A DNA stretch of 64,000 nucleotides from Nitrospira sp. Its GTDB lineage: Bacteria > Nitrospirota > Nitrospiria > Nitrospirales > Nitrospiraceae. Below, one piece after another: positions 687 to 38,613 of the stretch. Location of the stretch: positions 124,001-188,000 of the forward strand of contig JACOEL010000005.1 of NCBI GenBank assembly GCA_024998625.1. The letters run 5' to 3'. Every line of letters starts with the position of its first letter. Positions within the stretch are counted from its first letter, which is position 1. The notes beneath the pieces were generated by a model that worked only from the letters and a program-made list of their open reading frames with translations, ran no database searches and was not told the DNA's origin. A program made the translations under genes and the position numbers.

Positions 687-704
687 ACTAGGCAAACCGC
701 TAGC
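687..704. promoter_or_regulatory. Putative operator of the ACTAGG-N6-CCTAGT family (site 1)
   Basis: Reads ACTAGG CAAACC GCTAGC. The left arm is perfect and the right arm keeps the CTAG core. It is centred about 120 bp before the Hsp20-like gene (816) and about 77 bp before the divergent PAS gene. Its role is inferred from recurrence in the window. Confidence 0.45.
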
Positions 705-5066: not shown

Positions 5067-5084
5067 ACTAGTGAAACCCCTAGT
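5067..5084. promoter_or_regulatory. Putative operator of the ACTAGG-N6-CCTAGT family (site 2)
   Basis: Reads ACTAGT GAAACC CCTAGT, with a perfect right arm. It lies about 168 bp before the relic kinase start and just past the 3' end of the gene at 5113-5571, so it may have served the lost operon. Confidence 0.45.
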
Positions 5085-5623: not shown

Positions 5624-6025
5624 CTAGGCCGTACCACCGGAAGAACTCGGCACCGTTTCCATGACCATTTTATGGCAAAGTTCCGCGCAGCGACGGCATG
5701 CTGCCGCGCAGTCACCGCAGAGGGCATGGTGTGGAGCCTGTTCCTCACAGAGGCCGGCGCAGAGTTCACAGACCTCGGCGCACCATGCGCACAGACGGAC
5801 GGCGAACGTGGAGGTCCGCCCCATCCACTGAGCCGAGAGCAGGCAGATATCCGCACAGTCCCGACAGAGTCGAATACAGCGGCTCATAAGATCCTGCTCC
5901 GTTTCGTGCGGCATGCCGATCATGTCGTCCCCGCAGGTATTACACAGACGGGCGCAGTCGAGGCAGGCCTGTATACAGTCGGTTCTATGTTGGTCGATGG
6001 AGTGGGGCGCTGCAGTTATGGTCAT
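5624..6025 (-). CDS. Four-helix-bundle Cys-rich copper-binding protein (Csp/DUF326 family)
   Basis: 133 residues with 19 or so cysteines in helical CxxxC spacing (DCIQACLDCARLCNTC, CIRLCRDCADIC, LCAWCAEVCELCAGLC, CGDCAAACRRCAELC). This is the pattern of copper storage proteins, in which cysteines line the core of a four-helix bundle and bind many Cu(I) ions. No signal peptide is present, so the cytosolic (Csp3-like) type is likely. GGGAGG lies upstream of the ATG at 6025. It faces the phospholipase D gene across a 224-bp intergenic region. A role in copper buffering is inferred from the family. Confidence 0.85.
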   Translation of the reverse strand: MTITAAPHSIDQHRTDCIQACLDCARLCNTCGDDMIGMPHETEQDLMSRCIRLCRDCADICLLSAQWMGRTSTFAVRLCAWCAEVCELCAGLCEEQAPHHALCGDCAAACRRCAELCHKMVMETVPSSSGGTA

Positions 6026-6120
6026 CGGTCTGTCCTCCCTGTCGTCTGAATCTAGGACAGCCTACTTCAGATTTCATGGGTCGCCTACTAGGGAAACCTC
6101 TCGATCGATGATTCATCAGG

Positions 6121-8484: not shown

Positions 8485-9174
8485 ATGCGTCTGCGGGTGG
8501 CCTCCTACAATATCCATCGCGCCATCGGCAGAGACGGGCAATATGAGCCCGGCCGCATCCTTCGTGTCGCGCAAGAACTCAACGCAGACATCATTGCTTT
8601 ACAGGAAGTTGATTTTCCAAGGCAGGACAATGCTCCGATTGCGCCGTGGCTGGCGAAGAGAACCGGTATGATTGCGGTCGCCGGGCCAGTGTGGTCACGG
8701 GAGGGCGTGGGGTATGGCAACGCGCTGCTGAGCCGGTATCCGGTGGACCGGGTGCGCAGATGGGATCTCTCGGTGGGTCGCCACGAACCGAGAGGCGCGC
8801 TGGATGTCGACCTCACGATCTGCGGCCGAACGGTTCATGTGCTCAATACCCATCTGGGGCTGTGGCCGCGCGAACGGCCGCAACAGGCGGATCGATTGTT
8901 GAAACTCCTGGCAGTCGACCGACACGATCTCACGATTTTGATGGGCGACCTGAATGAGTGGCACGTCTGGGGTAAGTCGTTACGGGGGTTGCGCCGGGTG
9001 TTCGGTACCCCGGCCGCTCCGGTCACCTTTCCCGCTCGATGGCCGGTATTGGCGCTGGATCGTATCTGGATTTCTCCTGCTAAGGCGCTGTTGACCATAG
9101 AGGCGCACGATACTCCCCGAAGCCGGCTGGCCTCAGATCATCTGCCGGTCAAGGCCGACATCCTCCTTCCCTAA
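8485..9174 (+). CDS. Endonuclease/exonuclease/phosphatase family protein
   Basis: 229 residues with the metal-dependent EEP fold: VASYNIHRAIG at the N-terminus, IIALQEVDFP (catalytic Glu), LNTHLGLWPRERPQQ, ILMGDLNEW (Asp/Asn) and the terminal SDHLPVKADI (Asp-His pair). Substrates range from DNA to phospholipid head groups. Placement behind a phospholipase D-like gene favours lipid or phosphodiester chemistry in the membrane, which is inference. The start at 8485 has AGGAG 8 bases upstream; a GTG at 8470 is possible but lacks a good site. The 3' end overlaps the convergent gene at 9133-9417 by 42 bp. Confidence 0.88.
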   Translation: MRLRVASYNIHRAIGRDGQYEPGRILRVAQELNADIIALQEVDFPRQDNAPIAPWLAKRTGMIAVAGPVWSREGVGYGNALLSRYPVDRVRRWDLSVGRHEPRGALDVDLTICGRTVHVLNTHLGLWPRERPQQADRLLKLLAVDRHDLTILMGDLNEWHVWGKSLRGLRRVFGTPAAPVTFPARWPVLALDRIWISPAKALLTIEAHDTPRSRLASDHLPVKADILLP

Positions 9175-9417
9175 GTCCTCACAAAGATCGGTTTGCGGGG
9201 CTCTTGGGATGGCCGCATGCGCACGGCTCAGTTTCGAAAATCGAACTGAACAGGATGGGCAATAGGTATGGGTCAACCGATAGTCCCCGCTCGTCAGATG
9301 ATGATGGTTGAGATACGCCTCCAACGTTCCCCATCCCGGGTCCATCCCATCACGTTCCGAATCGTTCCGCACGTTATTGCAGCAACAGCAAATGGGAATG
9401 AACCGTGGTGTTGTCAT
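9133..9417 (-). CDS. Small zinc-binding protein resembling the C-terminal Cys motif of signalling proteins
   Basis: 94 residues. Visible pattern: IPICCCCNNVRND, then GWGTLEAYLNHHH, then THTYCPSCSVRF. This follows the C-x2-C-x2-IR...W-x2-VE-x-Y...FTH-x-xCPxC arrangement often attached to the C-terminus of PAS kinases and response regulators, but here it stands alone. Four cysteines could bind one zinc. The tail after residue 65 is not conserved-looking and overlaps the convergent gene. GGAGGGTGATGCC precedes the ATG. A perfect half ACTAGG (minus-strand reading) lies about 85 bp upstream (site 4), mirrored by the copy in front of the divergent hemerythrin gene. Function unknown. Confidence 0.65.
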   Translation of the reverse strand: MTTPRFIPICCCCNNVRNDSERDGMDPGWGTLEAYLNHHHLTSGDYRLTHTYCPSCSVRFSKLSRAHAAIPRAPQTDLCEDLGKEDVGLDRQMI

Positions 9418-9488
9418 GGCATCACCCTCCAGAGTTGAGTGCGCAAAGCGGACATTTTGTCAGCATACATGACGCCCTGCGCCAGTCC

Positions 9489-9506
9489 ACTGGGAGGAGC
9501 CCTAGT
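9489..9506. promoter_or_regulatory. Putative operator of the ACTAGG-N6-CCTAGT family (site 4)
   Basis: Reads ACTGGG AGGAGC CCTAGT on the plus strand. It is centred 80 bp before the start at 9417 (minus). Paired with site 5, which serves the divergent gene at the same distance. Confidence 0.55.
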
Positions 9507-9538
9507 TCTCACACGAGGGAGTCTCGGAGTCAGTGATA

Positions 9539-9556
9539 ACTAGGGCTTCCACGAGC
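9539..9556. promoter_or_regulatory. Putative operator of the ACTAGG-N6-CCTAGT family (site 5)
   Basis: Reads ACTAGG GCTTCC ACGAGC and is centred about 81 bp before the hemerythrin start (9629). Together with site 4 it forms a larger inverted repeat, GCCCTAGTT (9499-9507) against AACTAGGGC (9538-9546). Confidence 0.5.
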
Positions 9557-9628
9557 TAACCCCTGATCGACCCGCGTGATAGGTTGCGCGTGGCAGTAAC
9601 GAATCACTTCATTCGAAAGGAGCTGACT

Positions 9629-10129
9629 ATGGCACGAGCGGCAGGATTCGTTTCGACGGTATTCGAAATGTTGAAGGAGGATCACGACAAGGTCAAAAGG
9701 CTGTTTGAAGATTTCGAATCGGCGGAGGGGCGGGAGCGGGGCGAGATTGTAAAAACGGCCATCCAGGAGCTGGAAATCCATGCGGATCTGGAAGAGCGTC
9801 TGATTTATCCGGCCATTAAAGAGAAGATGGATGATCCGGATATGATGAACGAGGCGGTGGAGGAACATCATCTGGTGCATGTCTTGATCGCCGAGCTGAA
9901 GCGGATCAAGTCCGGAGACGAAAAATTTCAGGCCAAGTTCCGCGTGCTCAGCGAAGTGGTCAAGCATCATATCGATGAGGAGGAAGGTGAGATGTTCCCG
10001 CAAGCCGAGCAATGCGATATCGATTGGGAGCCGCTGGAGGCGGTTGCCTTTAAACGCAGGGAAACGTTGATGGCCAGAGCATCCGGTCGAAAAACCGGCG
10101 CCCGCCCATCCAAGAAAACGACTCGCTAG
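9629..10129 (+). CDS. Hemerythrin HHE-domain protein
   Basis: 166 residues. The HHE pattern for a di-iron site is clear: KEDHDKVKRLFEDFE, IHADLEERLIYPAI, EEHHLVHVLIAEL and VKHHIDEEEGEMFPQ. Hemerythrin-like proteins bind O2 or NO, or handle iron and peroxide. The tail (about 140-166) is basic (SGRKTGARPSKK), which may bind nucleic acid or simply be disordered. AAAGGAG 7 bases before the ATG fixes the start at 9629. Catalase follows 42 bp downstream, consistent with an oxidative-stress unit. Site 5 lies upstream. Confidence 0.88.
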   Translation: MARAAGFVSTVFEMLKEDHDKVKRLFEDFESAEGRERGEIVKTAIQELEIHADLEERLIYPAIKEKMDDPDMMNEAVEEHHLVHVLIAELKRIKSGDEKFQAKFRVLSEVVKHHIDEEEGEMFPQAEQCDIDWEPLEAVAFKRRETLMARASGRKTGARPSKKTTR

Positions 10130-10171: not shown

Positions 10172-12367
10172 ATGCCAAAAGATCGTTCCAAGCGGGAGAA
10201 TGAGAAAACCGCTGCCCTTGACGGCGCGCGGGAGAAGTCCGCAGATCAGTTCCTGACCACCAATCAGGGCCTGCGGGTCAACAATGATCAGAACAGCCTC
10301 AAAGCCGGTGCGCGTGGTCCGACACTGCTGGAAGATTTTATCCTACGGGAGAAAATCACGCATTTCGACCATGAGCGCATTCCCGAAAGGGTGGTACATG
10401 CCAGGGGCGCGGCCGCGCACGGCTATTTCCAAGTGTATAAATCGCTCGCATCGCTGACGAGGGCGAAGTTTCTACAAGACCCGGAGGTCAAGACACCGGT
10501 CTTCGTGCGTTTTTCCACCGTTGCCGGGTCGCGAGGATCCAGTGATCTGGCGCGTGACGCGCGAGGCTTCGCCGTGAAGTTTTACACGGAGGAAGGGAAT
10601 TACGACCTGGTTGGCAACAACATCCCGGTCTTCTTCATCCAGGATGCGGTGAAATTCCCGGATTTGGTCCATGCCGTGAAACCGGAGCCTCATCATGAGA
10701 TGCCGCAGGCGGCCTCGGCGCATGACACGTTTTGGGACTTTATCTCCCTCATGCCGGAATCCATGCACATGATCATGTGGGTCATGTCGGATCGGGCCAT
10801 CCCCCGGAGTTTTCGAATGATGGAAGGCTTTGGGGTGCATACCTTTCGCTTTGTGAATGCCAAAGGCGTCGGACGGTTCGTGAAATTTCACTGGAAGCCG
10901 CTTCTGGGTGTGCATTCACTATTGTGGGATGAGGCACAGAAAATTTCCGGGTTGGATCCCGATTTTCACCGGCGTGATTTATGGGAAGCCATCGAAGCTG
11001 GGCAATATCCGGAATGGGAACTGGGGGTACAGATCGTGGAGGAGAAGGACGAACAGAAATTTGAATTCGATCTCCTGGATCCGACCAAGCTCATTCCCGA
11101 GGAACTGGTGCCGGTGGTCCGAATCGGCAAGATGACGCTCGATCGTAATCCGGACAATTTTTTTGCCGAAACCGAGCAGGTAGCGTTTCATCCCGGGCAC
11201 CTCGTGCCCGGGATCGATTTTACGAACGATCCGCTGTTACAGGGCCGACTGTTCTCATATACCGACACCCAACTCATTCGATTGGGCGGACCGAACTTCC
11301 ATGAGATTCCCATCAATCGACCGTTGGCGCCTTTGCATAACAATCAACGCGACGGTCATATGCGACAGACGATCCATTCCGGGCCGGTGAGTTACCAACC
11401 GAACACTTTGGGGGGAGGCTGTCCCATGCAGGCCAAGGCGGGGATGGGCGGGTTCCTGAGTTATGCCGAACGGCTGCCTGCCGGCAAGGTGCGTGAGCGG
11501 AGTAGGAGTTTCTTCGACCATTTCAGTCAGGCTGCGCTGTTGTGGCGAAGTCAGTCTGTACCGGAGCAAGAGCATCTCGTGCAGGCGTTGCAGTTTGAAC
11601 TAGGCAAGGTCGAGAGCCTTCCGATTCGGGAACGAATGGTTGGCATGCTGTCCCAGATCGATAAAGGCTTGGCTGGACGGGTCGCGAAGGGCTTGGGCGT
11701 GCCGGTGAAGAAGATCGAGGGTCTGCTCAATTTGAGTGTTCCCGCCGATGGAGATCCGAAGGAGTTTCAACCCAAGCGCGCGACAACTTCGCTGGACAAG
11801 TCTGCGGCGCTGAGTATGGTGTTGGCTCCTAAGGAAGGTATTCAATCCAGAAAGGTGGCGATTCTGGTTGATGATGGAGTAGATGTCGAGTCGGTCAAAG
11901 GAATGCAGATGGCCCTTGCAGCCGCCGGAGGGCAGGGCAAGATAGTGGCGACCCGTTCGGGAAGCCTCACATCTTCGAACGGAAGTGAGCTGAAGATCGA
12001 TTTCAGCCTGTTGACGACGGGATCGGTGTTATTCGATGCGGTCTATATTCCAGGCGGTCAACGGAGCGCCAGCGCATTGTTGCGAACCGCCAAAGCAAGA
12101 ACGTTCGTTCAGGACGCCTACATCCATTGCAAAACGATTGCGGCGACGGGGGAAGGGGTTGCCTTTTTTGAAGCGTCGGTCGGGGCGGACTATCCGGAGG
12201 CGGAATCTGGAGGCAAAACCAGCCAGACACCGAAAGACTGGTCGCAGGATTCAGGAATTGTTCTGGCGCCGGACTCTTCGCCGAGGCAGATCGCAGCCCG
12301 CTTCATTAAGGGGATCGAGATGCATCGCCATTGGGCGAGGGAGATTCCACTGGCCAGTCCTTCCTGA
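10172..12367 (+). CDS. katE: Large-subunit catalase (HPII/KatE type)
   Basis: 731 residues. Converts hydrogen peroxide to water and oxygen with heme. Catalase core about residues 30-540: [14 protein letters not shown] with the distal His, [13 protein letters not shown], the Asn region [12 protein letters not shown], and the heme-ligand Tyr in RLFSYTDTQ. The C-terminal 170 residues form the flavodoxin/DJ-1-like domain unique to large catalases ([24 protein letters not shown]). The N-terminal extension (about 75 residues, [18 protein letters not shown]) is also typical of HPII. GGGAGGAG precedes the ATG. It is probably co-expressed with the hemerythrin gene. The length and key residues look complete. 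Confidence 0.95.
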
Positions 12368-15935: not shown

Positions 15936-17480
15936 CTACCCATCGTCTTCTTTGAGCGGGCTCAAGTCGCTTGTTGCCGGACCGTTGAGGACTTTGCCGA
16001 ACTGGTCGAACCGCGAGCCGTGGCAGGGGCAGTCCCACGTATTTTCTGCATGGTTCCAGGCCACGATGCAGCTCAGATGTGGGCACACGGCCGAACATTT
16101 GTGAAGATCTCCCTGGGCATCGCGGTAGATCGCGATCTTTGTCAATCCATCCCTCAGCACCGCGCCCTGTGCATGTGGAATTTGTGCCTCGGTTTCAACG
16201 TCCCCTCCGGTTACCCAGTCGGTATATTGAGCCGCGACGTTCAGTGATTCGCGGGAAAATTCGCCTGCGGCGCGCACCGTTTGTCGCGAGGGATCGTAGA
16301 GGGCGGACCAAGGCGACTCCCGTTTCATAATGAGATCGGTGATCAGCAATCCGGCAATCGTGCCATGCGTCATGCCCATTCCGGAATCTCCGGTTGTGAT
16401 GTAGATATTGTCCGCATCGCCCGGATTCCTGCCGATGTAGGCCAGCCCGTCCACCGATTCCATCACTTGTCCGGACCATCGAAATGTGAGGGCCTGCATC
16501 ATCGGGAAACGCTCGCGCGCCCACGCCTCCAGGCGAGCATAGCGGGCTTCCCCGTCGTCGGCCTGTCCGACCTTGTGGTCCTCGCCGCCCACGATGAGGA
16601 TAGATTGTGCGTCGCCTTGCGGGGATACCTCGCGATGAATTCGTATGTAGTGGTAGGGATCAAGGGTATCCCACAGTAGGACCGGTTCGATCGCTCCGTC
16701 CGGAATCGCCGCTCCGATGACATAACTGATATAGGGCGCCTGTTTGGTATGAATGGTCACCAGATTGTTGATGGGCGTGTTGGTGGCCACGACGACGGCC
16801 TGTGCGGTCACGATGCATCCCTGGCGGGTCTCCACCTTCGCCTGCTCACCGCTGTCGACATTGATCACATGGGCATCACTGAAGATGCGACCACCCTGCC
16901 GTTGAATGGCCTTCACGAGGCCGGCCAGATATTTCAATGGATGAAATTGAGCTTGTCCGGAGAACCGCAAGCAAGGGCCGCTACAAAACAGATTTCCCGG
17001 GAGTTGCTTTAAACACGTGACGTGTGGGATCTCCGCCCGCTGGATGGCTTGCCATTCTTCTTCAATGTCTTGGCCGGAGTCGTCCGAAGGAGCAAAACGA
17101 TAGCCGTCTAAGCGGATAAAATCACAATCGATGGGTTCCTGAGCCTGTATCTGCTCGATCCAATCGATGGCGGCCATATGGCTGCCGGCAACGAGGCGAG
17201 GAGCCGATCCCCCGTGGAGGCGTTCTATTTCGCCATAGCTGGAGTCGATGGCATTCGATAAGTGGGCTGTCGTTCGTTGAGTCATGCCGCTGCCGGGCTG
17301 ATCCTCATCCAATACGACGACCGACTTCCCTTGCTTGGTCAGGCAATAGGCCACTGTAAGTCCTGCGATGCCTGCCCCGACAACGCAGACGTCCGCATGG
17401 GCTCCTGTCGGCAGCGGTTGGGTTATGGGCATGGGCGTGGTCATCCATATCGAGCTGGTTTGTCCTGAATCGTTTTTCAT
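15936..17480 (-). CDS. FAD-dependent oxidoreductase with C-terminal Rieske [2Fe-2S] domain
   Basis: 514 residues. Residues 25-400 are a DAO/GlpO-type flavoprotein: dinucleotide motif VVGAGIAGLTVAYCL, VVVLDEDQPGSGMTQRTTAH and the C-terminal FAD motif YITTGDSGMGMTHG. Residues 420-510 form a Rieske domain with CPHLSC and CPCHGS ligands (Cys-x-His and Cys-x2-His, counting the second Cys of CPCH). Such fusions couple amine or sugar oxidation to an electron carrier; the substrate cannot be told. No signal peptide. It shares a 225-bp divergent region with the Cys-rich/ku operon, which contains two copies of the recurring inverted repeat. Confidence 0.88.
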   Translation of the reverse strand: MKNDSGQTSSIWMTTPMPITQPLPTGAHADVCVVGAGIAGLTVAYCLTKQGKSVVVLDEDQPGSGMTQRTTAHLSNAIDSSYGEIERLHGGSAPRLVAGSHMAAIDWIEQIQAQEPIDCDFIRLDGYRFAPSDDSGQDIEEEWQAIQRAEIPHVTCLKQLPGNLFCSGPCLRFSGQAQFHPLKYLAGLVKAIQRQGGRIFSDAHVINVDSGEQAKVETRQGCIVTAQAVVVATNTPINNLVTIHTKQAPYISYVIGAAIPDGAIEPVLLWDTLDPYHYIRIHREVSPQGDAQSILIVGGEDHKVGQADDGEARYARLEAWARERFPMMQALTFRWSGQVMESVDGLAYIGRNPGDADNIYITTGDSGMGMTHGTIAGLLITDLIMKRESPWSALYDPSRQTVRAAGEFSRESLNVAAQYTDWVTGGDVETEAQIPHAQGAVLRDGLTKIAIYRDAQGDLHKCSAVCPHLSCIVAWNHAENTWDCPCHGSRFDQFGKVLNGPATSDLSPLKEDDG

Positions 17481-17572: not shown

Positions 17573-17590
17573 GCTAGGCAGAGGCCTAGT
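17573..17590. promoter_or_regulatory. Putative operator of the ACTAGG-N6-CCTAGT family (site 7)
   Basis: Reads GCTAGG CAGAGG CCTAGT and is centred about 101 bp before the Rieske flavoprotein start (17480). The right arm is perfect and the left arm matches at five of six. Confidence 0.55.
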
Positions 17591-17624: not shown

Positions 17625-17642
17625 GCTAGGGGTTGTCCGAGT
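17625..17642. promoter_or_regulatory. Putative operator of the ACTAGG-N6-CCTAGT family (site 8)
   Basis: Reads GCTAGG GGTTGT CCGAGT and is centred about 72 bp before the Cys-rich gene that leads the ku operon (17706). Confidence 0.5.
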
Positions 17643-17910: not shown

Positions 17911-18771
17911 ATGCCGCGAGCGCTCTGGAAAGGGTTCATCAGTTTTGGGCTCGTCAATATTCCTGTTGTGCTGTATTCGGCCGAAAATCGGAACAGCTTC
18001 GATCTGACGCTCCTCGACCGTCGCGACATGAAACCGGTTGGATTCAAGCGCTACAACAAGGAGACGGGCAAGGAAGTGGCTTGGGACCACATCGTCAAAG
18101 GGTATGAATATGAAAACGGCCGTTACGTCGTTCTGACGAACGAAGATTTTCGACGCGCGAATGTCGAGGCCACACAGACCATCGATATTCAGAGCTTCGT
18201 GCGTGTGGAAGATATTTCGCCCACTTCCTTCGAGACTCCTTATTATCTGGCACCGGATAAACGGGGAGAAAAGGGGTATGCGCTCCTGCGCGAAACGTTG
18301 ACCAAAACAGGGAAGGCTGCCATTGCCACGGTTGTGATCAGGACGAGGCAATATATCGCCGCGCTGGTTCCCTGGAGTGAGATGATGGTGTTGAATACGC
18401 TGCGGTATGCCAACGAACTCCGGCCGATCAAGGATCTTGAGATTCCGGCGAAGAGCTTAAAGACGACGGGCGTGACGCCACGAGAGATAGAGATGGCGAC
18501 CAAACTGGTGGAGGAAATGTCGGATAGCTGGAACCCGGTCCAATATAAAGACACCTACCACGACGATCTCATGCGATTGATCAACAAGCGGATCAGGGCC
18601 GGTAACACTGAAGTGGTGACAGCGCCGAACAAAGGCGAAGCGGGCGAAAAGGCTGGCCGTGCCAAGGTCGTGGATTTGATGGCGCTCCTCAAGCGAAGCG
18701 TGCAACAGTCCGGAAAACCACAGCGGAACTGGCTGAAACGGGAGCGCCAGGCCAGTCGCAAAACGGCATGA
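17911..18771 (+). CDS. ku: Ku DNA-end-binding protein of bacterial NHEJ
   Basis: 286 residues. Homodimeric ring that binds double-strand break ends and recruits LigD. Ku core: MPRALWKGFISFGLVNIPV at the N-terminus, YNKETGKEVAWDHIVKGYEY, FVRVEDISPTSFETPYYL, GKAAIATVVIRTRQYIA and NPVQYKDTYHDDLMRLI. The last 40 residues are Lys/Arg-rich (KRERQASRKTA), as in proteobacterial Ku, and bind DNA or LigD. AAGGTG lies 6 bases before the ATG. The partner LigD gene is about 6 kb downstream on the same strand. Complete. Confidence 0.95.
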   Translation: MPRALWKGFISFGLVNIPVVLYSAENRNSFDLTLLDRRDMKPVGFKRYNKETGKEVAWDHIVKGYEYENGRYVVLTNEDFRRANVEATQTIDIQSFVRVEDISPTSFETPYYLAPDKRGEKGYALLRETLTKTGKAAIATVVIRTRQYIAALVPWSEMMVLNTLRYANELRPIKDLEIPAKSLKTTGVTPREIEMATKLVEEMSDSWNPVQYKDTYHDDLMRLINKRIRAGNTEVVTAPNKGEAGEKAGRAKVVDLMALLKRSVQQSGKPQRNWLKRERQASRKTA

Positions 18772-32491: not shown

Positions 32492-33214
32492 TCAAGTTGA
32501 GTGAACAGGTTGTTGGGCATCGTTGCCCCGGCGATTCCCGCCGTCGGCTCCCTTGTTCAATGAGGTTTGCGTCCGTGATGGGTGCTCGTCCTCCGGAGTG
32601 AGGACCGTGAGATTCATGCCCAACGCGCGAGCGATTTCGGGCATGGCCTTGCGCGCCAGTTCAAACAGTAGTGTGCGTCCGACCTGTAGCACCATGTGTT
32701 TGGTCTCTTCTGTATCATGGCCGAATTCGCGCGATAAGGAACTCCAGAGGCTTGAGCCATGGCCGTCGGGTCGTCCGACGGAGGATTGTGATTCGTGAGG
32801 ATAGTAGTCATACACGCCTTCGGCCTGCTTGGACTTTGCGTGTCGTTGAGCCGGAGCCGGCATAACCCGGGGGCCGCGCACACCCGGCGGGTAGTGAGGA
32901 TACACTCCACCGCGTTGATGTTTGCTTCCCTGTTCGATTAAACCGATGGCATACCCTGCGCAGAGGGCACCGCCCAACATCAGCCAGGGATGCCGGTCGA
33001 TGTGCTGGGCCGGATCCACGACCGCTTTGGTTTTATTCACGAACGCACCGATGTTGTCGGTGGCTCGATTCAACATGTCTGAACACGTCATCGTCACGTC
33101 CTCCACTCGGTGTGTGATCCGTTGCTCCAGCACATCCAGCTTTTCGGCAATGGCGATCCTCGTCTGTGCGATGTCTCTCAAGCCCTGTTCGATAGCACTC
33201 GTTCTGTGATCCAT
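32492..33214 (-). CDS. DUF883/ElaB-like membrane-anchored stress protein
   Basis: 240 residues. The N-terminal 75 residues are helical and amphipathic (IAEKLDVLEQRITHRVEDV, RATDNIGAFVNKTKAVVDPA), followed by a membrane helix PWLMLGGALCAGYAIGLI, as in DUF883/YqjD proteins. The region after (about 100-240) is hydrophilic and includes a helix (MVLQVGRTLLFELARKAM). Related proteins tie ribosomes or envelope structures to the membrane in stationary phase. AAAGGAAG precedes the ATG. The first 37 bases overlap the holin-like gene, which points to a common transcript. Confidence 0.75.
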   Translation of the reverse strand: MDHRTSAIEQGLRDIAQTRIAIAEKLDVLEQRITHRVEDVTMTCSDMLNRATDNIGAFVNKTKAVVDPAQHIDRHPWLMLGGALCAGYAIGLIEQGSKHQRGGVYPHYPPGVRGPRVMPAPAQRHAKSKQAEGVYDYYPHESQSSVGRPDGHGSSLWSSLSREFGHDTEETKHMVLQVGRTLLFELARKAMPEIARALGMNLTVLTPEDEHPSRTQTSLNKGADGGNRRGNDAQQPVHST

Positions 33215-33585
33215 CGGACATCTTCCTTTAGTGAGTGAAAGGTGCGAAATGGCCAGTATCGGAGACTCGCGCCCACCTTAACCACCCTGAACATCAACCC
33301 ACCGGTCCCGACTGCGGAGGTGAACCCCACAATGCCGTAACAGGCCCAGAGCGGAAGGTTTGTGTAGGTCAGGAGTAAATGGACCCCCATCATCAGCAGG
33401 AAGAGGGTTGCCATGACTCCCAGGAGAAGACTGATGCCGCTCTGTATCACTATCGAGCTGAGCTTGTGCCGTTCGTGCTGCAGTTCGTGACGTGCCAGCT
33501 CCATCTCTTGACGCAGGAGGCAACGGAGGTCTGACATCAGGCCCGACACGAGCACGCCGATTGAAATTGGATGTGGATTGTCCAT
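33178..33585 (-). CDS. Phage-holin-like (Actinobacterial holin-X/DUF1469) membrane protein
   Basis: 135 residues from ATG 33585. N-terminal LVSGLMSDLRCLLRQEMELA with amphipathic helix HELQHERHKL, then two membrane helices (IVIQSGISLLLGVMATLFLL, LPLWACYGIVGFTSAVGTGG), the usual layout of this family. In non-phage settings it is co-located with DUF883 and similar proteins, as here, and is thought to act in the envelope under stress. GGGGAAAGG lies about 12 bases upstream. Overlaps the next gene by 37 bases. Confidence 0.82.
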   Translation of the reverse strand: MDNPHPISIGVLVSGLMSDLRCLLRQEMELARHELQHERHKLSSIVIQSGISLLLGVMATLFLLMMGVHLLLTYTNLPLWACYGIVGFTSAVGTGGLMFRVVKVGASLRYWPFRTFHSLKEDVRWITERVLSNRA

Positions 33586-34038: not shown

Positions 34039-34056
34039 ACTGGGCAAAGCCCTAGT
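34039..34056. promoter_or_regulatory. Putative operator of the ACTAGG-N6-CCTAGT family (site 10)
   Basis: Reads ACTGGG CAAAGC CCTAGT on the plus strand, with a perfect right arm and five of six on the left. Centred about 92 bp before the start at 33955. Confidence 0.55.
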
Positions 34057-35306: not shown

Positions 35307-35705
35307 CTATCTCTTGTTCAATAGCGGAAAGAGATCGCGCTCCTCCGCGATGAAATGGGCACGGACGGTCTGCATCATGTCTTCAAAGAATTCATCCAAC
35401 AATTCGTCGTCATCGTTTTCAGCCTGTTGTAACTCGTCTACCATCGCTTTAATCTCCTCATGTTCTAAGAGAAGATGTTCCACCAAGGTCCGGCCTTCGT
35501 TGTCCTGATGCCGAACGTCCTCCGTCAGCCGCTCTTCCATTTGGAAATGGCCTGTCAATCGTTGCAGGATCTGGTCGATGTGGGATTGTCGGGAGTCTGC
35601 CGGGGCGGCACGGTACAGCTGGAAGAGGGCCAGAATATGGCGATGGTCGTCGCGTATCAGCTTGACCGCGCCGTCGGTGTTCGACATCGTCGGTGTGTTC
35701 GCCAT
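35307..35705 (-). CDS. Hemerythrin HHE-domain protein
   Basis: 132 residues from ATG 35705, chosen for GGGAGG 7 bases upstream; a longer frame starts at 35768. Di-iron ligand pattern: RDDHRHILALFQLY, HFQMEERLTEDV, LLLEHEEIKAMVDEL and VRAHFIAEERDLFPLL. A second hemerythrin beside the one at 9629. The Asp/Glu-rich stretch (AENDDDELLDEFFED) between the last two helices is unusually acidic. A role in O2, NO or iron handling is known for the family. Site 11 lies upstream. Confidence 0.88.
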   Translation of the reverse strand: MANTPTMSNTDGAVKLIRDDHRHILALFQLYRAAPADSRQSHIDQILQRLTGHFQMEERLTEDVRHQDNEGRTLVEHLLLEHEEIKAMVDELQQAENDDDELLDEFFEDMMQTVRAHFIAEERDLFPLLNKR

Positions 35706-35782: not shown

Positions 35783-35800
35783 ACTGGGTAGGACCCTAAT
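35783..35800. promoter_or_regulatory. Putative operator of the ACTAGG-N6-CCTAGT family (site 11)
   Basis: Reads ACTGGG TAGGAC CCTAAT on the plus strand and is centred about 86 bp before the hemerythrin start at 35705. Its spacer and flanks share TAGGGTCCTACC (reverse reading) with the sequence before katE. Confidence 0.45.
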
Positions 35801-37977: not shown

Positions 37978-38304
37978 CTACGTGCGCCGGGAAGCCGCCT
38001 CGCCCACGGTTTTCTCGGCGGTCTGGACGGTCTCTTCCACGAATTCCCGGGCGGCCCGCCCGGCGTTTCGTAGGGTTTGCTTTCCACCCTCGACATATTC
38101 CTGCCCGCGATCCACGGCGTGATCCCAAGCGGCGCGACCCTGCTCGGTAGCCTCGTCCAGTTCATCTTTGGCCTTGGATGCATAGTCGCGCAGGGTGGAA
38201 CGAAGCTCCGTGCCGGACTGGGGAGCCAACAGTAGTGCGATCCCCGCACCGATGAATGCGCCCGCCATAAATGCCGACCAGTTGGAAGACTCTTCTGTAT
38301 TCAT
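37978..38304 (-). CDS. YtxH-domain (gas-vesicle/stress-type) membrane protein
   Basis: 108 residues. YtxH signature at the start: WSAFMAGAFIGAGIALLLAPQ followed by SGTELRSTLRDYASKAKDEL, then a long Ala/Glu/Arg helix to the C-terminus. Family members in Bacillus belong to the general stress response. A near-perfect ribosome site (AAGGAGGT) precedes the ATG. Site 12, the best copy of the recurring inverted repeat, is about 91 bp upstream. Confidence 0.85.
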   Translation of the reverse strand: MNTEESSNWSAFMAGAFIGAGIALLLAPQSGTELRSTLRDYASKAKDELDEATEQGRAAWDHAVDRGQEYVEGGKQTLRNAGRAAREFVEETVQTAEKTVGEAASRRT

Positions 38305-38613
38305 CGCTGACCTCCTTACAATTGACAGAATTGACGATGTTGTCGAACGCCTGATCTCAACAGTAACAGGATGCTGCGAACCTCCCACTAGGCATGGCCC
38401 TAGTTGAGCGGTGCGCAGCGTGTGAACGCGGGAATTTGCATTGACTATGCGTGACGGCGAGTCATGCCGGAATGGGCGGCATCGCGTGAGGGAGAGCGTA
38501 GAGATAGGCAAGTCAGCAGGGCTGCTCGTCAACGGAGTGTCTGGAGCTTAAACGCGGAAAATTCGTGGCAATGCCAAGCAGGGAACGAGGGAAAATGACA
38601 TGGTGCGGGATTA
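38305..38613. other. Intergenic region between the YtxH gene and tRNA-Arg
   Basis: 309 bp without a convincing gene. It contains the ribosome site of the YtxH gene and the inverted repeat at 38387-38404. Nothing else is recognised in 38405-38613. Confidence 0.7.
38387..38404. promoter_or_regulatory. Putative operator of the ACTAGG-N6-CCTAGT family (site 12, perfect arms)
   Basis: Reads ACTAGG CATGGC CCTAGT, a perfect inverted repeat with a six-base spacer. Centred about 91 bp before the YtxH start (38304). This copy defines the consensus. Confidence 0.6.

Follow-up and report, generated by a model that had tools for sequence, protein, structure and literature searches.

The question raised by this locus is whether two copies of a short dyad, lying back to back between divergently oriented genes, serve as one activator site for each gene or form a single larger palindrome. 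The locus lies in a 64-kb stretch of DNA from a nitrite-oxidising Nitrospira, hereafter the window, which is part of a stress-gene island in which promoters carrying the dyad cluster. Profile searches identified two hemerythrins, a large catalase, Ku, LigD, YtxH and DUF326 proteins among the products of the island genes, and the island presumably also encodes CsbD-like proteins, glycogen/trehalose enzymes and PAS kinases, which were named by reading the sequences. The reading that we favour, at a probability of about three in four, is that one box per gene would be occupied by a dimeric class II activator, likely the LuxR-type response regulator RR1 or a close paralogue.

The divergent promoter region

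The minus-strand gene (9133..9417, ATG at 9417) encodes a protein of 94 amino acids and is preceded by the sequence GGAGGGTG, which fits a ribosome-binding site. This gene had been labelled a zinc-protein gene in the first-pass annotation. A CxxC...CxxC motif is indeed present but is the sole basis of the label, since the protein has no match in Pfam or NCBIfam; it resembles the brief cysteine motifs with which some sensor kinases begin or end. Among the loci scanned, this gene was found as a target only here and in one relative (G023), and the proposal that it is a recurrent target elsewhere was dropped. On the plus strand lies a gene for an HHE-domain hemerythrin (9629..10129, ATG at 9629; Pfam PF01814, E 1.3e-17), followed after 42 bp by a gene for a large-subunit catalase (10172..12367; PF00199, E 2.6e-184) that is probably co-transcribed with it.

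Two copies of the dyad are present in the 211 bp between these genes as originally described, each an imperfect dyad in its own right. Box A (9489..9506, minus strand), which in its own orientation reads ACTAGGGCTCCTCCCAGT, would serve the zinc-type gene, and box B (9539..9556, plus strand; ACTAGGGCTTCCACGAGC) would serve the hemerythrin gene and probably also the catalase gene. The proposed distance of about 80 bp to the start codon of the respective gene is borne out by the box centres, at 80 bp for the zinc-type gene and 81.5 bp for hemerythrin. Box A shows no mismatch to the oriented consensus RCYAGGG-N5-CCYAGT derived below, and the -10-like sequence TATGCT (9462..9467, minus strand) lies 21 nt past it, from which a transcription start is predicted at about 9455 (minus strand). 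Box B is followed by an extended -10-like element, TGATAGGTT (TGaTAGGTT, 9577..9585, plus strand), whose hexamer TAGGTT (9580-9585) lies 23 nt past the box and places a predicted start at about 9592 (plus strand). The predicted leaders of the two genes are nearly equal in length at about 37 nt. Each predicted start is found some 34-36 nt past its box, within the 20-60 bp anticipated by the first-pass annotation. A scan for sigma-70 consensus promoters between 9380 and 9680 found none. A weak third match between the boxes (9513-9530, three mismatches) showed no conservation and was dropped.

The boxes are conserved to different extents. In the two closest relatives (G012 and G023), in which the gene order is unchanged, both boxes and both -10 elements are kept, with TATACT and TATGCT respectively as the equivalents of the box A hexamer, and the DNA between the boxes, including that between the arms of the repeat described below, has diverged. 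The proximal arm of box B is degenerate (ACGAGC against CCTAGT, three mismatches) and with these mismatches the box would not stand without its conservation. It is kept as AACTAGGG-N5-[AC]CGAG[CG] in all 13 hemerythrin orthologues with an alignable region (63-100% identity), and the degenerate arm is therefore a conserved feature. The element TGNTANNNT (TG-N-TA-N3-T) follows in the same 13, at an offset of 22 in 12 of them and of 23 in this genome. Box B is also retained where box A or the zinc gene is missing. No box of this type was seen at a few other hemerythrin copies (L031, L037, L043 and L044). Separately, four hemerythrin paralogues (L038, L039, L040 and L045) share a conserved upstream box, [TG]CTAGGGT[AG]CTTCCTAGC, with no TANNNT at the usual offset and, in some, a TATGAC-like hexamer nearby.

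The inner halves of the two copies had also been said to form a larger inverted repeat. This repeat is real (9498..9547), with 15-nt arms at 9498-9512 and 9533-9547 that are 93% complementary and separated by a gap of 20 nt, and the window contains only one other repeat of this quality (15-nt arms with no more than one mismatch, gap of 3-40). Its origin lies in the back-to-back layout of the boxes at 9489 and 9539, which turns their stronger, promoter-distal arms (ACTAGGG) toward one another. A separate role for it appears unwarranted, and a role as a hairpin is not supported by the sequence. An extended pattern, GCCCTAGTTNTNAC, was also tried and rejected: it is exact at the box pair only, and with three mismatches allowed its matches are no commoner than expected by chance.

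Box consensus, spacing and distribution

The tetranucleotide CTAG is about five-fold depleted in the window (43 seen against 233 expected), and CCCTAGTT occurs four times against an expectation of 0.57, a count reached in none of 100 shuffles. When the two copies were compared with the remaining CCCTAGTT occurrences in the window, the 18-bp dyad ACTAGG-N6-CCTAGT emerged. Its spacing to the -10 was determined in 504 kb of island DNA from seven Nitrospira genomes, which contains 99 dyads with at most two mismatches. Of these dyads, 14 are followed by the hexamer TANNNT at an offset of 21 nt, 43 at 22 nt and 15 at 23 nt, against about 0.6 cases for each other offset. At least one such -10 accompanies 70 of the 99 dyads, where 60 permuted dyads gave a mean of 0.57 and a maximum of 5; permuted arms were used because the reversed-pattern control counts GATC-rich sequences and is unsuitable for the plain dyad. 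In 26 of the 99, TANNNT is absent at 21-24 on both sides.

When 58 unique sites were oriented by their -10, the consensus became RCYAGGG-N5-CCYAGT. In 51 of them a G occupies position 7 of the distal arm, and the mirror position is not conserved, so that the dyad carries orientation. Judged from the -10, the dyad centre falls near -42, about 30 bp before the start of the -10 and abutting the -35 position, and no TTGACA-like -35 signal is conserved next to the box in the 58 oriented sites. In silico, the promoters thus combine the fixed dyad position and the lack of a consensus -35 that mark class II activator-dependent promoters, and we hold this predicted architecture of box, spacing and -10 with good confidence. 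The suggestion that each gene has its own oriented upstream activator site is largely supported by these computational results, given the outward -10-like element at 21-23 nt, the asymmetric arms and the conservation of both copies. Direction is given by the asymmetry of the arms and the position of the -10; the dyad itself is nearly symmetric.

In the 4.4-Mb genome to which the window belongs, the strict pattern of box, spacer and -10 has five matches, all on this contig, and the control has none. Seven of the 12 dyads with at most one mismatch lie within C32:97508-162404, five of them in the window; with two mismatches allowed there are 18 in that segment and none in the next 45 kb. Four of the five dyads on other contigs (C4, C7, C13 and C15) lack TANNNT at 21-23 and appear to be chance matches, and the fifth, on C28, has one.

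Elsewhere in the window, a minus-strand box at 687..704 lies upstream of a PAS-type kinase gene (start near 603), with TAGTAT 23 nt on. The direction of the box at 5067..5084 is uncertain, there being TACCTT at 24 nt on the plus strand and TACTAC at 22 nt on the minus strand; its sequence ACTAGTGAAACCCCTAGT is kept in two relatives (G003 and G008). A degenerate minus-strand box with three mismatches (6087..6104; TAGGCT 22 nt on) precedes the Cys-rich DUF326 gene (5624-6025), an arrangement also found in G020. Other minus-strand boxes point toward the membrane-protein genes at 33178-33504 (PF07332) and 32492-33214 (box 34039..34056, TACCTT 22 nt on) and toward the second hemerythrin gene at 35307-35705 (box 35783..35800, TACGGT 22 nt on), and a perfect dyad (38387..38404, minus strand; TACTGT 21 nt on) before the YtxH gene (37978-38304) has a near-identical counterpart in several relatives. 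The pair at 9489/9539 is not the only divergent one. At 17573..17590 (minus strand, TAGGCT 23 nt on) a box faces a FAD/Rieske oxidoreductase gene (15936-17480), and its partner at 17625..17642 (plus strand, TACGTT 21 nt on) faces Ku (17911-18771). A further pair lies at C32:97508/97549 (L015), where no obvious gene is seen on the minus-strand side, which may hold a missed small gene or RNA. In two relatives a single near-perfect dyad has a -10 at equal distance on both sides (G018:C15:539959-540031 and G017:C53:38086-38159). Taken with the two-box pairs, this indicates that divergent promoters of the regulon can be built either from two boxes or from one shared box.

The candidate regulator and rival explanations

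The gene for RR1 (C32:108528-109211) lies 15 kb upstream of the window and forms with that for RR2 a convergent pair (C32:108528-109872; L016, L053), 15.5-14.1 kb upstream of window base 1. RR1 has a receiver domain (PF00072, E 4.3e-24) and a GerE domain (PF00196, E 2.1e-20), as does RR2, and the DNA-binding domains of both proteins are near-invariant across 20 genomes. An RR1 orthologue (85-98% identity) is present in 20 of 29 Nitrospira genomes, which carry 4-12 strict promoters where the nine genomes without it carry 0-2 each, a split that is uncorrected for relatedness and in which the presence of RR1 is confounded with that of the island. Around RR1 relatives of 50-68% identity (L114-L132), 18 promoters were found in 284 kb of neighbourhood against a permuted mean of 0.2; the 291 kb of neighbourhoods around more distant relatives (L134-L150) contained none. 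In N. moscoviensis the convergent RR1/RR2 pair is kept and there is a box before RR1. It was also observed that in an Acidobacteria gp3 MAG (L133, position 10675) a box with the -10 spacing lies directly behind a response regulator of 51% identity; its occurrence in another phylum would reflect transfer or a binning error.

From the sequence, fixed spacing, conservation and co-occurrence of the boxes we infer the start sites, the activation, the identity of the protein and the signal. In the proposed mechanism each copy would be the site of a dimeric activator in the class II position of its own outward promoter, so that box A would activate the 94-amino acid CxxC gene leftward and box B would activate hemerythrin, and probably catalase, rightward. 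The activator would most likely be a LuxR/NarL-type response regulator in its phosphorylated form whose recognition helix is of the KTVEFHK type, the candidates being RR1 and its close paralogues. A regulator of the LuxR/NarL family is predicted with fair confidence, and for RR1 itself the odds are roughly even.

The same architecture may be used by a protein other than RR1, namely RR2, an RR1-RR2 heterodimer or a paralogue such as that encoded at C28:23351-23980, and we regard this as a serious possibility, if one at clearly less than even odds. A heterodimer would suit the unequal arms, and the convergent arrangement of RR1 and RR2 is conserved, as are the near-invariant DNA-binding domains noted above. 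The C28 paralogue has a box behind its own gene in four of the genomes examined, this one together with G002, G019 and G021; here it reads CCTAGG-N6-CCTAGT, directly downstream of the gene (L020 5246-5263 = G000:C28:24246-24263), with TACCCT 22 nt on. One of these genomes, G021, which is assembled as a single contig, has four promoters, RR1 and RR2 are absent from the surrounding 118 kb and there is no close RR1 elsewhere, so that RR1 cannot be the sole protein using the box. G011 has box B and no RR1, its contig being syntenic with G003 and ending about 1.7 kb before the RR1 position, and here the absence is likely to be an assembly gap. Outside the genus, three genomes (G029, G072 and G075) have 5-8 strict promoters and no RR1 at E<=1e-85. 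Against a different protein, island promoters vary in number with the presence of RR1 across the genus, and the RR1 neighbourhood is box-rich in distant relatives too. A CRP/FNR-family protein acting as the class II activator is decidedly improbable. Its geometry and position would fit, as CTAGG-N6-CCTAG has the 5-N6-5 layout of a CRP site, four CRP-type helix-turn-helix proteins score above the cut-off in this genome, and CRP/FNR regulators have been predicted in a Nitrospira close to N. defluvii (PMC8510549). However, none of the four genes is on the island contig, and within and beyond the genus the boxes cluster with LuxR-type response regulators.

The remaining alternatives concern the kind of element. 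Many operators are dyads, and the dyad here abuts the -35 position, where a repressor could block RNA polymerase. This is improbable given the near-constant spacing between box and -10, which repression does not require, the absence of a -35-like sequence beside the box and the lack of a sigma-70 consensus promoter in the region. The fixed distance to the -10 would also be expected if the box were an upstream promoter element recognised by an alternative sigma factor, and an RpoS-like sigma factor is encoded, just below the family cut-off; searches with the RpoS and SigB families found no member above the curated cut-offs. We consider this very doubtful, as 21-23 nt exceeds the 16-19 nt that usually separate the two elements of sigma-70-type promoters and an 18-bp dyad points to a dimer. 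Finally, almost no credence can be given to the pair being one composite element, whether hairpin, terminator or single large operator. The complementarity of the 15-nt arms speaks for it, but some relatives that lack the partner copy still retain copy B, the sequence separating the arms has diverged, a terminator scan of the intergenic region found none, and both predicted starts lie outside the repeat, which would therefore not be transcribed from these promoters. A dimeric activator of the LuxR/NarL type remains the preferred reading.

Relation to known systems and significance

Several precedents make LuxR/NarL-type proteins a good match for the geometry and position of the dyad. UvrY binds an 18-nt dyad, TGTAAG-N6-CTTACA, of 6-N6-6 layout (PMC4682653), and the UvrY/SirA/GacA-type systems thus resemble the Nitrospira box in geometry and in their LuxR/NarL-type response regulator. 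They differ in the half-site and in that the main targets of UvrY are small-RNA genes, whereas here many stress-gene promoters carry the box at one fixed position. A placement of RR1 in the UvrY/GacA subfamily was rejected, since it scores 140.7 bits with the UvrY-family model NCBIfam NF007018 (cut-off 280) and the site sequence differs. In Pseudomonas, CrbR, also a LuxR-type response regulator, requires an imperfect repeat that spans -52 to -36 (PMC5715377); its ACTU motif is likewise an imperfect dyad immediately before the promoter core but has another sequence and serves another regulon, that of acetate use. The 20-bp lux box, centred at -42.5 (PMC3376562), shares the GerE-type DNA-binding domain of its protein and the class II position, but its sequence differs and LuxR is a ligand-binding protein and not a response regulator. 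By sequence, the closest relatives of RR1 with solved structures include the response regulators DevR/DosR and VraR. Their known sites differ in sequence from the Nitrospira box. The mechanism would be of a known kind; the box, the spacing rule and the regulon were not encountered in a literature search limited to open-access papers.

The boxes are part of a set of stress-gene promoters that is conserved throughout the genus and whose members probably all answer to one family of signal-activated regulators. A bolder reading, which we consider rather unlikely, is that this Nitrospira lineage switches a general stress programme (comprising catalase, hemerythrins, CsbD, glycogen/trehalose and DNA end joining) en bloc by a convergent pair of LuxR-type response regulators at class II boxes and not by a dedicated stress sigma factor, the unequal arms being read by an RR1-RR2 heterodimer. 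What was a visual palindrome becomes a predictive promoter rule consisting of the box, 22 nt and TANNNT. In the N. defluvii lineage, whose members matter for wastewater treatment and are difficult to modify by genetic means, this rule identifies the promoters of an extensive stress island, and the group gains a testable candidate regulator.
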